This document shows, in pieces, positions 22,306 to 33,172 of a DNA stretch of 64,000 nucleotides (positions within the stretch are counted from its first letter, which is position 1; each line of letters starts with the position of its first letter). The stretch spans positions 1-64,000 of the IMG/VR virus record IMGVR_UViG_3300044816_000082; one strand, written 5' to 3'. The notes beneath the pieces were generated by a model that worked only from the letters and a program-made list of their open reading frames with translations, was not told the DNA's origin and made no database searches. Source of the stretch: a virus. The position numbers were made by a program, and so were the translations under genes.

Positions 22306-24768
22306 ATGACCATGACCGATGAGGTAGCGCGGCAGGGTGCTCAGCTCACGTCCCGCGAGCACGGGGCGCTCACGATCAGTCCCGAGCAGACGTGGTGGAC
22401 TGAGGCGCAGAACGCGGCGCTTGAGAGCATCGGTCTTCGCGACACCCCGAACGGGGACAGGGTCGCGTTCCTGCACCTGTGCCAGACGACCGGCCTCGAC
22501 CCCTTCCGTCGGGAGGTCTATCTGATCGGCCGGAACGACCGCACGGCACCGAGCGGTAAGAAGTGGACCGCACAGACCGGCATCGACGGGTTCCGGCACC
22601 TCGCGGAGCGGACCGGGGTGTACGGCGGGAAGGTCGGCACGCAGTGGTGCGGACCCGACGGTGAGTGGCGCGACGTGTGGCTGTCGACCGAACCGCCGTC
22701 CGCCGCGCGGGTCGCGGTCGCCCGGACCGACCTCGAGCACCTCGTGTACGGCGTCGCTGTCTACACCGAGTTCTGCCCGATGCTCGATGTGTGGACCGGC
22801 TCAGGGAACGCTCGCCGTAAGACTGGCGAGCAGGTCCCCGGTGACATGTGGATCAAGATGCCCTCACATATGTTAGCTAAATGCACCTCGGGCGACACCG
22901 AGGTGCTGACCGATCACGGCTTCCGCCGGTTCGACTCCGTGGCCGAGCACGAGCGCATCCTCATGGTCACCGAGCAAGGGCTCGTCGCGACCGACGCCCG
23001 GCCGTTCCGTCAGCCGTACAGCGGCCCGATGGTCACCTGGCGCGCGGGAGGTGGCGCAACCATCGACCTCGTGATGTCCCCGAACCACGACGTGCTGCTC
23101 AGCTCGGGCGAGAAGGTCGAAGCCGCCGACCTGCACGCCCGTACCACGGTCCGCAGCCCGGACAGCATTCCGCTCACGGTCACCGGCTCCCGGCCCGATG
23201 CTGACGTGAAGGACGACGCGCTGTACGCCGCCGCCGTGTACCTCGCGGACGGGTCCGACTACAACAAGACCGGCTTCGTTGTCGCAGTCTCACGCCCGAG
23301 GAAGGTGGACGCAATCCGTACCTTCGGTGGCTACCTTGACGAACGAATCCGTCGCTCGGCTGGCGACACCGCGACGTCCGCGAGCGGCCGGGTCATCACG
23401 ACCCGCAGCGACAAGCGCGTATTCGTCTACGAATGGACGGCGATCGCCGGGACGCCCGTGCGCCCGGGCAAGCAGCTCGACATCGACGCTCTGCTGGCGC
23501 TATCGCCGCGGCAGGCTCGGCTGCTCGTTGACACGTGGGCATGGTTCGACGGAGACACAGCGCACCCCGGCGGGACACGACGCATCAAGGTCGGCGACCC
23601 GCACCTCGCGGACGCCTTTGAAGTCGCCGCCGTTCACGCCGGGTACTCACTGTCCCCGCGCCGCCTACGCCATTCCGACCTCGGCGACGTGTGGGAGTTC
23701 ACGCTCTCGACTAAGACCGAGGTCCACGTCCGGCGTCGGAACGAGACAGGCGCTCGCGCGCTCGCGGGGCTAGACATTGAGCCGACCAACCCCAGCGGTG
23801 AGGTGTGGTGCGTCACCGTGCCCTCTCACGTCATCGTCATCCGACGTGAGGGCCTGTCCTGCCTCACCGGCCAATGCGCGGAAGCCCTCGCGCTGCGGAC
23901 CGCGTTCCCGCGCCAGCTCGCGGGGCTGCGGACCAGCGATGAGATGCAGTTCGCTGACGCGAAGCTCCGTAACGCTGAGGCTGACCTGGCGGCGCAGAAG
24001 GCCGCGCGGGAACTCGCCCGGGCTGAGGGCGCGAGCCGGCCGTGGGCGAAGGACGCCGACACGGTCGTCGTCGATGAGAACGGGGTGGTCATCTCGGGTG
24101 GGGACGTGCCGCTCCCGAGCCATGACGAGTTGTGGCATGACCTGACCGAGCAGGCACGGGTCCTGGGCAAGACGATCACCGCCCACACGACTCGATGGGT
24201 CGCGGCGCACAAGAAGAACGCCGACGAGGCCACCGATGAGGAACTGTACGAGTTCGTCGAGAGCCGTCGGGAACAGGTTGGGCGGCACCTCGCGGAGCAC
24301 CCCGACGTCGCACCGCCGACGCCGTACGTCGCACCTGAGCAGGAGGGCACCGCTGCCTCCACCGTCCCCTCCAACGGACCGGACGAGGACCCGGCGGTGC
24401 CCTCCGACGGGCCGGCCGTGCCTGTCGGTGACCTGTCGGTGAAGCCCCCGAAGATCCCACCCGCACCGAAGACCGACGGTCACCGTTCCGAGTTCGGGGA
24501 CCCGGTCCCGGTCGACATCGATGAGCGCCGCACCGCGCGTCGGTACTACATCGACAGCACCGACGACCTGTCGCCCACCGAGGAGGCCGACGCGTGCCGT
24601 CGGTCCGCGGCGATCGACGCGATGCTCGCGGAGGACGTCGGCCCGGCTCACAAGGACTACGACACGCTCGTGGAGAGCGCCGGGTTGTGGACCACCGAAG
24701 CCGAGATGGCGGAGACACGGATCGAGGTCGATGGTCAGGAGAACCTGTTCGACCCCGACGCTGAGTAG
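22306..24768 (+). CDS. recT: RecT/Bet single-strand annealing recombinase interrupted by an intein
   Basis: 820 residues, ATG after AGGAAGG. Residues 1-192 and 524 onward form a RecT/Bet annealing protein (LHLCQTTGLDPFRREVYLIG, GFRHLAERTGVYGG, then AEALALRTAFPRQLAGL), which pairs DNA ends during phage recombination and replication. The intein (193-523) splits the conserved MLAK-CAEALALR segment. After splicing the product has 489 residues, including a charged, proline-rich C-terminal extension of about 250 residues. The Cas4/RecB-like nuclease at 25469 is the expected exonuclease partner. Confidence 0.9.
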   Translation: MTMTDEVARQGAQLTSREHGALTISPEQTWWTEAQNAALESIGLRDTPNGDRVAFLHLCQTTGLDPFRREVYLIGRNDRTAPSGKKWTAQTGIDGFRHLAERTGVYGGKVGTQWCGPDGEWRDVWLSTEPPSAARVAVARTDLEHLVYGVAVYTEFCPMLDVWTGSGNARRKTGEQVPGDMWIKMPSHMLAKCTSGDTEVLTDHGFRRFDSVAEHERILMVTEQGLVATDARPFRQPYSGPMVTWRAGGGATIDLVMSPNHDVLLSSGEKVEAADLHARTTVRSPDSIPLTVTGSRPDADVKDDALYAAAVYLADGSDYNKTGFVVAVSRPRKVDAIRTFGGYLDERIRRSAGDTATSASGRVITTRSDKRVFVYEWTAIAGTPVRPGKQLDIDALLALSPRQARLLVDTWAWFDGDTAHPGGTRRIKVGDPHLADAFEVAAVHAGYSLSPRRLRHSDLGDVWEFTLSTKTEVHVRRRNETGARALAGLDIEPTNPSGEVWCVTVPSHVIVIRREGLSCLTGQCAEALALRTAFPRQLAGLRTSDEMQFADAKLRNAEADLAAQKAARELARAEGASRPWAKDADTVVVDENGVVISGGDVPLPSHDELWHDLTEQARVLGKTITAHTTRWVAAHKKNADEATDEELYEFVESRREQVGRHLAEHPDVAPPTPYVAPEQEGTAASTVPSNGPDEDPAVPSDGPAVPVGDLSVKPPKIPPAPKTDGHRSEFGDPVPVDIDERRTARRYYIDSTDDLSPTEEADACRRSAAIDAMLAEDVGPAHKDYDTLVESAGLWTTEAEMAETRIEVDGQENLFDPDAE
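22882..23874 (+). other. Intein with LAGLIDADG-type endonuclease domain, inside RecT
   Basis: 331 residues. N-terminal splice block CTSGDTEVLTDHGF with Cys1; block B-like MSPNHDV with His at residue 261 of the precursor. Two LAGLIDADG-type helices, YLADGS (Asp315) and WAWFDGDT (Asp415), both retain the acidic residue, so the homing endonuclease may be active. The C-terminal block VWCVTVPSHVIVIRR ends in LTGQ before Cys+1: Gln replaces the usual Asn and Gly the penultimate His. Confidence 0.9.
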
Positions 24769-25401: not shown

Positions 25402-25442
25402 GCTAACGTGGTTGACGATCGACGGCCCGGCGAGCGACCGGG
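25402..25442 (+). promoter_or_regulatory. Early promoter box (variant) and 5' hairpin leader
   Basis: GCTAACG TGG TTGACG (25402-25417), a variant shared only with 53425, then a 5-base-pair stem CCCGG/CCGGG with loop CGAGCGA (25426-25442). GAGGAGG precedes the GTG at 25469. Confidence 0.6.
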
Positions 25443-25468
25443 ACGAGGAACGCACGAGGAGGACACCT

Positions 25469-26671
25469 GTGACCATCATGCCGCTGACCGAACTTCTGGC
25501 CGGCACCCCGGCGCGCTCGGAGTGCCGCGAACCTGAGTGCGACCGGCCGATCCGGCGTCGGGGCCTGTGCTCGCGGCACTATCGGCAGGCGCGGCAGGTC
25601 GAGCGTTGGCGTGAGCTGGCACCGACCGCTCCGTCGCTCAAGGACGCCATGCGCATAGCGGACGAGATGCGGGACCGGTCGATGAAGACGGCCCGGGCAC
25701 GTGCCGAAGGCCGGTTCGGAGTCGGTCCGTCGGACCTCACGACGTGCCGGAAGCAGATCGAGTACCGGGAGAACCCCCCCGAGGGCTACGTCCCTGACCC
25801 GGTCGACAAGGGCGCCGCGTACGTCGGGACCATGATCCATGAGGGGATCGCGGCGGTCCGGCGCATCCTGTACCCGTGGTGTGAGATCGAGCGGGAGATC
25901 CACGTCCCGGGACTTGATGAACCGGGGCACGCGGATGTGTGGGACCCGATCGCTCACCGGGTCGAGGACGACAAGAGCGCCGGGGAGTGGGCGTGGGAGA
26001 AGATCGGACGGGACGGCGCCCGCGAGGAAGACATCGACCAGGCGATGCTGTACGCCCTCGGGTTGGCTGAGGAAGGGCTGACCGTCGTGACGGTGCGGTT
26101 GAACTACATCCGGCGAGCCAACGGCGAAGTCGAAGTGTTCGACTTCCCCTACGACCGAGGTCGGGCGCTCACCGCCTTGGGGCGGTTGCACACCATCCTC
26201 GATGACCTGACCGACGGCCGCGAGCTGCCCCGTGATCGGGAAGGACCGAGCATCGACCCGATCTGTGCCAGGTATTGCCCGGCGGTCAGACACTGCTGGG
26301 ACCTGCCGAACGTGCCGCAAGGCCGGACACCCGAGTCGTGGGTCAAGGTCCGCGATGACGAGACGATCGCGGCGTTGCTCGTCGACTACAACACGGCCCC
26401 GACCCCGGAGGCCAAGAAGCGGATCCGGGTGCTGCTGACCGGGTTGGACGCGGGGAGGTACGGCGACTTGATCCTCGGGTGGCGGGGTGGGAAGACAACC
26501 GAGGTGCAGGACCATGAGGCACGCTTGGTGCAGCTTGAGGCGGCGCTGCTCGCAGGGACGCCGCTGTCAGAGTTGGAGTACCCGATGAAGTCTGTGACGA
26601 GCAACGTGTCGATCAGCGTCGAGGCTGTCCGGCAGGCCACCCTCGACGCCGAAGCCGCGGAGGGACAGTGA
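25469..26671 (+). CDS. Cas4/RecB-type PD-(D/E)XK exonuclease
   Basis: 400 residues, GTG after GAGGAGGACACC (ATG 25478 also possible). An N-terminal zinc-finger-like CREPECDRPIRRRGLCSRHY is followed by the nuclease core: TTCRKQ (about 93), GTMIHEG (about 121), GHADVWD (about 153), EDDKSA (about 166) and CARYCPAVRHCW (about 266-277). The four Cys outside the core are those that hold an iron-sulfur cluster in Cas4/AddB-like nucleases. It would resect DNA ends for RecT. Confidence 0.82.
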   Translation: MTIMPLTELLAGTPARSECREPECDRPIRRRGLCSRHYRQARQVERWRELAPTAPSLKDAMRIADEMRDRSMKTARARAEGRFGVGPSDLTTCRKQIEYRENPPEGYVPDPVDKGAAYVGTMIHEGIAAVRRILYPWCEIEREIHVPGLDEPGHADVWDPIAHRVEDDKSAGEWAWEKIGRDGAREEDIDQAMLYALGLAEEGLTVVTVRLNYIRRANGEVEVFDFPYDRGRALTALGRLHTILDDLTDGRELPRDREGPSIDPICARYCPAVRHCWDLPNVPQGRTPESWVKVRDDETIAALLVDYNTAPTPEAKKRIRVLLTGLDAGRYGDLILGWRGGKTTEVQDHEARLVQLEAALLAGTPLSELEYPMKSVTSNVSISVEAVRQATLDAEAAEGQ

Positions 26672-31152: not shown

Positions 31153-31280
31153 CCGACGCGCCGGGGCACCCGACGGTCGAGGCGCGGTTGTTCCGCGTGT
31201 CCTTGTCGGTGTGGGCCGCGATGATCGTGGCTGCGGTGACCTGGCGGGGTTGCCGGCGGACCCGAAGGACCCGACTGTGA
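31146..31280 (+). CDS. 44-residue membrane protein
   Basis: GTG inside the end of the loader gene, stop overlapping the methyltransferase GTG. A polar N-terminus is followed by one short hydrophobic helix (LSVWAAMIVAAV) and a very basic tail (RRTRRTR). Overlaps on both sides suggest it is translated. Role unknown. Confidence 0.5.
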   Translation: MVADAPGHPTVEARLFRVSLSVWAAMIVAAVTWRGCRRTRRTRL

Positions 31281-33172
31281 CCAGCGCTGAGCTCGCCCCT
31301 GGTCCGCCTGTCGACGGTTGGGAGTTGCTCGCGCAGACCTACACAGGCGACCTGCGGATCCCGACGTTGGACAGCCCGACCGTCGTGAGCCTGTTCTCGG
31401 GCGTCGGCGGGCTCGACGCTGGATTCGAGATGGCCGGGTACCGCGTCGCGGTGCAGGTCGAGAAGGACAAGAACTGCCAGACCGTGCTGGGAGCACGGTT
31501 CCCCGATAGCCGAATCTTCGGTGACGTCACGGAGGTGTCCGTTGAGCAAGTCCTCGAGGCTTTGGGAGGACGACGACCCCACATTCTCATCGGGGGGTTC
31601 CCCTGCACAGACCTCTCTGTGGCCGGGGGCCGTGCTGGACTGGCTGGCACACGGTCCGGTCTCTACGGCGAGCTTATTCGGCTTGCTGATGGCCTCCTGC
31701 CCGAGTGGGTGGTGGTCGAGAACGTCCCCGGGCTGCTCTCTGCCGACATCGATCCCGAAGCCAACGACGGCGCCGGATGGGGACCAGGAACCGCCATGGG
31801 ACTTGTTCTCGGAGACCTCACCGGGTACCGCCCCCCCATCCCCGACGGTGGCTGGCGCAACAGCGGAGTGTGTGTGGGACCCCTCAGATCCGTCGCTTGG
31901 CGCGTCCTTGACGCTCGACACTTCGGAGTCGCCCAGCGTCGCCGCCGGGTGTTCCTTGTCGCGCACGTTGGAGACGGGACCGCACCTGCTGAGGTACTCC
32001 TTGAGCCCGAGGTCATGCGCGGGGATCCTCCGCAGGGCGTCGCGCCGCGGCCGCGCGCTTCCCGCCCAGTTGCACCGGCCGCTGTACGCGCAGGCGTCGG
32101 AACTGCTGACGGAGCAGGAGAGGGTGACGCTGGCCCCGCCCGGCCCTTGATGACCGCGGAGCAGGGCATCGTGAGCGCCCTAACGTCGAGCTTGGGTGAG
32201 GGTGGGCCGGACGCCGCGCATGCCCACGCGGGATGGTTCGTGGAGGTCGAGGAGCAGGACGTGACGAGCAGCCTGCTCGCGAGCGCCGGGGCAGGCCGTA
32301 TCCGCACTGAGGAAGCCGCCGGCGGGCAACTCGTGCCGCTCGATGAGGGAGCTGGGTTCACCCTCGAGTACCTCGCAGGGAGCTGCCCTACCCAAGCGTG
32401 GGGATGGCTGCCTGACAGCAGCCCGTTCTACTTCCGCGCTCGACACGGCCGGTGGACGATCGAGGTCGGCAACATCGGTTGGCCGCTGCTGTACGACCAG
32501 TGGCCCGAGGACCCTGAGGTGCTCACGAGCGGCGAGGACCCGACCCACGGGCACATGTCCGCTCAGGACGTGCGCCGTATCCTGAGCGAGACGTTCGCCG
32601 TCGGGGACACCCGAGCGACCGAGCTCGTCGTGGAGGCCGTGGACTTACGGAACGGCGGTCTGTCGACGGAGGTGACCAGCACCCTGCAATCACATGGCCG
32701 GTCCTACTCGCTGAACGCACAACCGACGATCCTCGAGCACGTCCCGGACGTGACCGCGACGGTCACCGCCAAATGGGCCAAGGGCAGTGGGGGGCCGGCC
32801 GGCGATGAGGCGCAGAACCTCGTCGCGACCGACCCGGAGACGTACAACCCTGTCCCGATCGACCTCAAGGCTGCGACCAAGACCGACCACCGGACCGGCG
32901 TCGGGACCGTCGGCGCTGGTTTCGGTGACCCCGGAGACCCCATCGGCACCCTCACGACCGGCTCCACGCAGGGCGTCAGCGGTCCCCGTGTGCGACGCCT
33001 GACCCCCACGGAATGCGAGCGGCTGATGGGAATGCCGGACGGATGGTGCAACCCCGACGGGAAGACCTCTGACAGCGCGGTCTACCGCGCGTGTGGGAAC
33101 GCTGTCGTGATGGCGGTCAGCGCATGGGTCGCGTGGCGCTTGGCTGCCTACGACGCCGGGTGGCGTCCCTGA
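31277..33172 (+). CDS. C5-cytosine DNA methyltransferase with inserted domain
   Basis: 631 residues; the GTG overlapping the previous stop is preferred to an upstream ATG. Motif I SLFSGVGGLDAGF, motif IV GGFPCTD with catalytic Cys110, motif VI VENVPG, motif VIII QRRRRVFLV and motif X GNAVV are all present, so it should methylate cytosine at C5. Between motifs VIII and X lie about 350 residues instead of the usual 100-150, including an aromatic segment PFYFRARHGRWTIEVGNIGW at about 380-400 that does not look like a target-recognition domain. Likely protects phage DNA from restriction. Confidence 0.85.
   Translation: MTSAELAPGPPVDGWELLAQTYTGDLRIPTLDSPTVVSLFSGVGGLDAGFEMAGYRVAVQVEKDKNCQTVLGARFPDSRIFGDVTEVSVEQVLEALGGRRPHILIGGFPCTDLSVAGGRAGLAGTRSGLYGELIRLADGLLPEWVVVENVPGLLSADIDPEANDGAGWGPGTAMGLVLGDLTGYRPPIPDGGWRNSGVCVGPLRSVAWRVLDARHFGVAQRRRRVFLVAHVGDGTAPAEVLLEPEVMRGDPPQGVAPRPRASRPVAPAAVRAGVGTADGAGEGDAGPARPLMTAEQGIVSALTSSLGEGGPDAAHAHAGWFVEVEEQDVTSSLLASAGAGRIRTEEAAGGQLVPLDEGAGFTLEYLAGSCPTQAWGWLPDSSPFYFRARHGRWTIEVGNIGWPLLYDQWPEDPEVLTSGEDPTHGHMSAQDVRRILSETFAVGDTRATELVVEAVDLRNGGLSTEVTSTLQSHGRSYSLNAQPTILEHVPDVTATVTAKWAKGSGGPAGDEAQNLVATDPETYNPVPIDLKAATKTDHRTGVGTVGAGFGDPGDPIGTLTTGSTQGVSGPRVRRLTPTECERLMGMPDGWCNPDGKTSDSAVYRACGNAVVMAVSAWVAWRLAAYDAGWRP

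Follow-up and report, generated by a model that had tools for sequence, protein, structure and literature searches.

An intein with a predicted homing endonuclease and a Gly-Gln terminus in the RecT annealing protein of a viral contig

The recT gene of a viral contig was found to be interrupted by an intein of 331 aa, for which we propose the name RecT-a. It is encoded on the plus strand of the window, i.e., the whole stretch of 64,000 nucleotides that was analysed (positions 1 to 64,000 of IMG/VR record IMGVR_UViG_3300044816_000082, which comprises 90,880 bases), at positions 22882-23874. The initial annotation had proposed an intein of this size at these positions; its coordinates proved to be exact. 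Related inteins align with this intein from end to end, and its predicted fold matches those of known inteins. Thus, it was confirmed that 22882-23874 is an intein with a predicted LAGLIDADG homing endonuclease inserted in RecT. As a whole, the data are best explained by a homing RecT intein, for which we infer DNA cleavage and class 1 splicing with Gln cyclisation (probability about 0.8).

Phage recombination and genome engineering both rely heavily on RecT annealases. While the element itself is of a known kind, its host protein, its site and the combination of a Gly-Gln end with a block-F His are, provisionally, new. A search of full-text literature, which did not extend to subscription papers and intein databases, yielded no report of an intein in RecT or in another annealing protein, and a mycobacteriophage survey does not name RecT among its intein host proteins. 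An intein in the DNA groove of RecT adds a host-protein family and an insertion site to those described in the intein papers that were searched, and it places a homing element inside an enzyme that may execute its homing.

Host protein and structure of the intein

The interrupted ORF (22306-24768, plus strand, 820 aa) was matched by the Pfam RecT family at residues 49-193 (E 3e-13) and by PHROG 2780, 'RecT-like ssDNA annealing protein' (E 3.5e-51), while its residues 193-523 have no counterpart in RecT. The N-extein of 192 aa (22306-22881) contains the Pfam RecT match and aligns with phage RecTs from residue 1; the C-extein (23875-24768), delimited by the junction and by alignment to intein-free RecTs, starts with the Cys+1 of CAEALALR. 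When joined, the exteins yielded a RecT domain with the conserved C-terminal motif K..E....R.aFP, which places the protein among the RecT/Redβ annealases. Judged by its sequence, the host protein would be an otherwise ordinary phage RecT once the insert is removed. Its gene is present as a single copy in the 90,880-base record, whose terminase is nearest to those of actinophages (45% to Streptomyces phage Gilgamesh). According to PHROG matches, the genes located 3′ of recT include an exonuclease-like gene, a replication initiator and a DnaC-like loader. The exonuclease-like ORF (25412-26671, plus strand; PHROG 1674 exonuclease, E 7e-11) lies two genes downstream of recT and encodes the likely recombination partner of RecT. 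It has a TTG start, and N-terminal to its exonuclease match lies a short region that resembles a zinc finger or HNH domain (Zf_WRKY19, E 3.5e-4; PHROG HNH, E 9e-4).

The intein is inserted between Lys192 and the following Cys (PSHMLAK/CTSGDTEV ... LSCLTGQ/CAEALALR, the slashes marking the junctions). It possesses the splicing motifs A, B, F and G, in which positions G:6 and G:7 (Gly and Gln) are atypical. The first nucleophile Cys1 (22882-22884) and Cys+1, the pair expected of a class 1 intein, are both invariant in the 20 distinct inteins that we found at this site (see below). In block B (Ser66-Pro-Asn-His69, covering B:7 and B:10; 23077-23088) the sequence PNH is invariant in all 20, whereas B:7 is Ser in the window intein and Thr in the other 19. 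The C-terminal blocks F and G, VWCVTVPSHVIVIRREGLSCLTGQ, occupy positions 23803-23874; block F reads VWCVTVP and includes at its position 4 Cys310 (23809-23811), which is again a Cys in all 20. The endonuclease domain spans approximately intein residues 103-284 (23188-23733). Both LAGLIDADG Asp residues, reported as intact in the initial annotation, are indeed in place: Asp123 of the first motif YLADG (23248-23250) is conserved in the aligned inteins of this site except L056 (LCCG), and Asp223 of the second motif WFDG (23548-23550) is present in all 20.

An AlphaFold model of the intein, for which four sequences from the same site were supplied, gave a mean pLDDT of 74.6 and showed Hint strands at both ends flanking a LAGLIDADG middle part. 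The best PDB matches to this model obtained with Foldseek were TliVMA (E 1.6e-10) and PI-SceI. With VIA-align, the endonuclease domain was superimposed on PI-SceI 1ef0 (Z 12.8, rmsd 3.5, 163 residues) and on I-DmoI (Z 11.4, rmsd 3.2, 144 residues), the motifs and the fold together indicating a LAGLIDADG homing endonuclease. The two intein ends taken together matched Hint domains (Z about 9 to 11, rmsd 3.4-4, 110-119 residues), while the whole intein gave Z 12.9 with PI-SceI at an rmsd of 17, since the domains are placed differently. PI-SceI and TliVMA thus share the Hint fold and the LAGLIDADG endonuclease predicted for the window intein, but they are larger, reside in VMA and are only about 10-14% identical to it. 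Neither the window intein nor those of L035, L051 and L042 were matched by an intein family of Pfam or NCBIfam, so that the assignment is based on the alignment of its kin, the motifs and the fold. The mycobacteriophage RDF-type intein, a relative of which is known to splice, also remained under the Pfam cut-off (16.4 of 35.8 bits), indicating that curated models miss this group of inteins.

Recurrence of the insertion site and traces of homing

RecT relatives without an insert, which the initial annotation had named as a comparison, align seamlessly across the junction. When the RecT sequence with the intein removed was used as query, all 90 matching GenBank phage records aligned in one piece, and all 60 among the matches listed cross the junction. 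The same holds for 16 RecTs of other viral contigs, whose 16-row alignment has no gap at the junction, an invariant Lys just before it and an invariant Glu two residues after it.

Related inteins were sought in viral contigs with a degenerate DNA pattern encoding M-L-A-K-C-x-x-x-D-T. With this pattern, four records were recognised whose recT is interrupted by an intein at the identical junction, three of them distinct. A search with these sequences aligned to the window intein led to 22 IMG/VR records besides that of the window (L035-L056), in which the intein interrupts recT at exactly the same codon. In total, 20 distinct sequences including that of the window were obtained, 17 once near copies had been removed. 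The 19 others align with the window intein over the entire length at 33-52% identity. Its nearest relative is the L035 intein (52-53%), from which it differs at 39, 29 and 68% of the first, second and third codon positions, respectively, a distribution that reveals constraint on the intein sequence. The RecT junction is therefore a recurrent intein site of viral contigs, occupied in diverse RecTs; several of the contigs bear identifiers in the style of isolate genomes. The suggestion in the initial annotation that an intein is not known at this position of an annealing protein agrees with the literature searched, but the position is not unique to this phage. No RecT-site intein was found among 50,697 GenBank phage records, a scan of bacterial genomes limited to two peptide patterns disclosed distant inteins but no member of the RecT-site family, and when viral contigs were searched with only the window intein as query, no relative was confirmed. 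The only full-length match among the GenBank phages was the intein in the thymidylate synthase of Corynebacterium phage P1201 (24.7%, E 4e-7), which differs in its host protein and is too distant to represent the same allele.

Two natural pairs of occupied and empty sites were found. One is formed by L042 and Aeromonas phage phiARM81mr, in which the protein that the depositors annotated as RecT lacks the intein. The two sequences are 97% identical upstream and 92% downstream of a clean insertion of 951 bp in L042. Upstream of the junction, differences occur at distances of 1, 4, 7, 19, 22, 28, 58 and 70 bp, the next one following only at 499; downstream, they occur at 6, 9 and 21 bp and next at 105. 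All eight upstream differences within 450 bp are synonymous, and six of them are confined to the 28 bp next to the junction (hypergeometric p 1.4e-6, 30 of 450 bp). Such clustering is what co-conversion should leave behind once a break has been mended with an intein-bearing donor as template. It represents a homing footprint and lends indirect support to cleavage of the intein-free site by the endonuclease. In the other pair, the L035 contig shares about 85% identity with Synechococcus phage S-H1, whose recT is intein-free, and no clear co-conversion tract was seen. The L035 contig also exhibits, relative to S-H1, a 148-bp deletion (about position 4664 of L035; L003 2945-3092), which removes the start of an otherwise near-identical RecT and could be due to decay or to an assembly error.

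In the window, a possible remnant of co-conversion is located directly before the intein. The six codons TCA CAT ATG TTA GCT AAA (22864-22881, plus strand), a run of A/T-ending codons in a gene with a GC3 of 0.85, form the six-codon stretch of lowest GC3 within the 821-codon ORF and hold its only TTA; shuffling of the third codon positions gave P 2.5e-4 for a low-GC3 stretch at exactly this place. In 16 of 17 representatives the GC3 of the intein was below that of the host gene (Wilcoxon p 4e-4). In the window, intein and host gene agree in GC3 (0.85 and 0.85), which points to long residence. Six IMG contigs whose identifiers are of the isolate type (L037-L041, L043) carry near-identical inteins with a GC3 of about 0.32 versus about 0.52 in their RecT; here one intein seems to have spread recently among related prophages. 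The flanks of L037 had no match among phage or E. coli records.

Trees of inteins and RecTs disagree in places. The nearest intein to that of the window is found in L035, whereas the most similar RecT is encoded by L051. Grouping of the window with L051 was rejected by the intein data (AU p 0.001), while the RecT data, which are weak, gave p 0.042 for window plus L035 and p 0.12 for window plus L051. In view of the weak RecT data, the conflict is only suggestive of a transfer of inteins between RecT lineages.

The Gly-Gln terminus and the splicing mechanism

The intein ends with Gly330-Gln331 (GGC CAA, 23869-23874; Gln codon CAA, 23872-23874) followed by Cys, as described in the initial annotation, which regarded this terminus as non-standard. 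Concerning Gln, this is justified, as only three of the 20 inteins end in this residue (TGQ in the window, GRQ in L035 and SGQ in L050), and a second scan with these three as query gave no further Gln-ended RecT member. Gly, by contrast, is no private defect of the window intein. All 17 Asn-ended inteins terminate with Cys-Gly-Asn, and a penultimate Gly instead of His is the rule in this group. Nor is it established that such an end should slow splicing; the initial annotation had expected it to slow or change the resolution of the branch. The RDF intein of mycobacteriophage Bethlehem splices to completion with a penultimate Gly, and its exchange for His causes the precursor to accumulate (PMC5050341). 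Gln slows splicing of the Pab and Mma PolII inteins, which is improved by Asn, but the ribonucleotide reductase (RNR) intein of Chilo iridescent virus (CIV) splices better with Gln than with Asn (PMC4031507). In the literature searched, we found no tested intein that combines a penultimate Gly with a C-terminal Gln, and no splicing data for any RecT intein.

The terminal residue covaries with a position in block F. His316 (23827-23829) of the window intein belongs to the sequence VP[ST]H, which is present in all three Gln-ended inteins, while the 17 Asn-ended ones have VP[ST]G (His in none of 14 after removal of near copies). The inteins of the window and L035 form a sister pair (100/100), from which L050 is separate, although one common Gln clade was not rejected (AU p 0.10). 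The association may therefore go back to one or two evolutionary events, which are too few independent pairs for statistics. Some more distant inteins combine the block-F His with Asn, so that this His does not need Gln. In the Gln-ended PolII intein of Pab, 4.1 Å separate the block-F His from this Gln, and the His has been proposed to promote Gln cyclisation (PMC8175363). On the basis of this geometry and of the observed pairing, we propose that His316 serves Gln331.

Known inteins resemble that of the window in single traits. The mycobacteriophage RDF (metallophosphoesterase) inteins of the Bethlehem gp51/Euphoria gp49 type, which are among its nearest GenBank relatives by tblastn (about 23-30% identity), share Cys1 and a VWC block F, and the Euphoria intein ends with LTGN, i.e., with the same penultimate Gly but with Asn instead of Gln. 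They differ in their host protein, in having Ser+1 rather than Cys+1, and in the lack of a block-F His (VPNG). The PolII inteins of Pyrococcus abyssi and P. horikoshii have Cys1, a C-terminal Gln and Cys+1, and that of Pab additionally the block-F His; however, they are mini-inteins of 166-185 residues in an archaeal polymerase, with a penultimate His and Ser at F:4. The CIV RNR intein, which we liken by its description, is viral, natively ends with Gln and splices, but belongs to another host protein and another virus.

According to the preferred reading, Cys1 would form a thioester after translation, Cys+1 would accept the N-extein, and Gln331 would cyclise to an aminoglutarimide, with the block-F His316 assisting in the role usually played by a penultimate His, whereupon ligated RecT would be released. 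The endonuclease would cut intein-free recT genes at the conserved K/CAEALALR codons, and repair would copy the intein in, perhaps by way of the phage's own annealing system. The RecT family may serve to study how splicing could survive the loss of both standard C-terminal catalytic residues; with Asn- and Gln-ended inteins at the same site of the same protein and a covarying block-F His, it amounts to a natural experiment.

Alternatively, an intein that lacks both His and Asn might splice poorly and leave RecT mostly unspliced or N-terminally cleaved, which the phage would tolerate because host or other functions replace RecT. The slowing effect of Gln on the PolII inteins would agree with this, as would the Gln-ended L035 copy, which may sit in a damaged recT. 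We consider this unlikely, because three divergent Gln-ended inteins have kept Cys1, blocks B and F, the endonuclease Asps and Cys+1, the GC3 of the window intein points to long residence without decay, the interrupted recT is the sole copy in the record, and CIV provides a case in which Gln is the better residue.

Slightly less probable still is that the slow Gln step has been retained to time RecT activity, for instance by a release that only occurs with single-stranded DNA. Here the position of the intein is relevant. A profile of intein-free RecTs reached lambda Redβ (7ujl, E 1.7e-6) and placed the junction, with moderate confidence as the segment alone is weak (i-Evalue 0.21), between His153 and Lys154, which both bond the template strand (PMC9512822); phmmer searches of the PDB, started from the intein or from the joined RecT, yielded no useful match. 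At such contacts unspliced RecT should not anneal, and the substrate could sense the intein. A precedent is the RadA intein of Pyrococcus horikoshii, as cited in PMC8987985. But inteins are generally inserted at conserved active sites, because homing needs conserved DNA, and most RecT inteins have Asn. If RecT were nevertheless gated by a slow Gln-cyclising intein responsive to single-stranded DNA between two template-strand contacts, this intein would control the very recombination system that performs its own homing.

A mechanism like that of class 3 inteins, in which Cys310 (F:4) attacks first and Cys1 acts as a relay, appears quite improbable: all RecT-site inteins have Cys at F:4, the window intein has Thr at G:5 (VWC..LTGQ) and class 3 structures were among the fold matches, but Cys is the second most common F:4 residue of inteins generally (PMC4031507), and the class 3 signature is absent, since Cys1 is present and invariant and B:12 is Val in the window and Met in the other 19 instead of Trp.

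Further candidate inteins in the record

Outside the window, the 90.9-kb record appears to encode two further inteins in an ORF of 1228 aa for a prohead protease (G000:C1:75869-79555; L004:15869-19555). One of them ends with VYFTGN/S and has HRW in block B together with Cys1, thus combining class-3-like WCT residues with Cys1. The other one ends with WVHN/C and was matched by Pfam Intein_splicing (E 9e-4) and LAGLIDADG_3 (E 1e-4). A weak second match of the RecT intein at 76871 of the record led to other inteins of the same genome and not to a copy of the RecT intein. The C5 methylase gene at 31211-33172 was also read and revealed no intein motifs. In an ORF of 1818 aa (G000:C1:65749-71205; L004:5749-11205), a portal protein is joined to a weak Mu F match, and an intein-like segment extends from NCVPPWQ to SSRN/C (Intein_splicing, E 0.0035). 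Together, RecT, portal and prohead protease account for four candidate inteins in this record.
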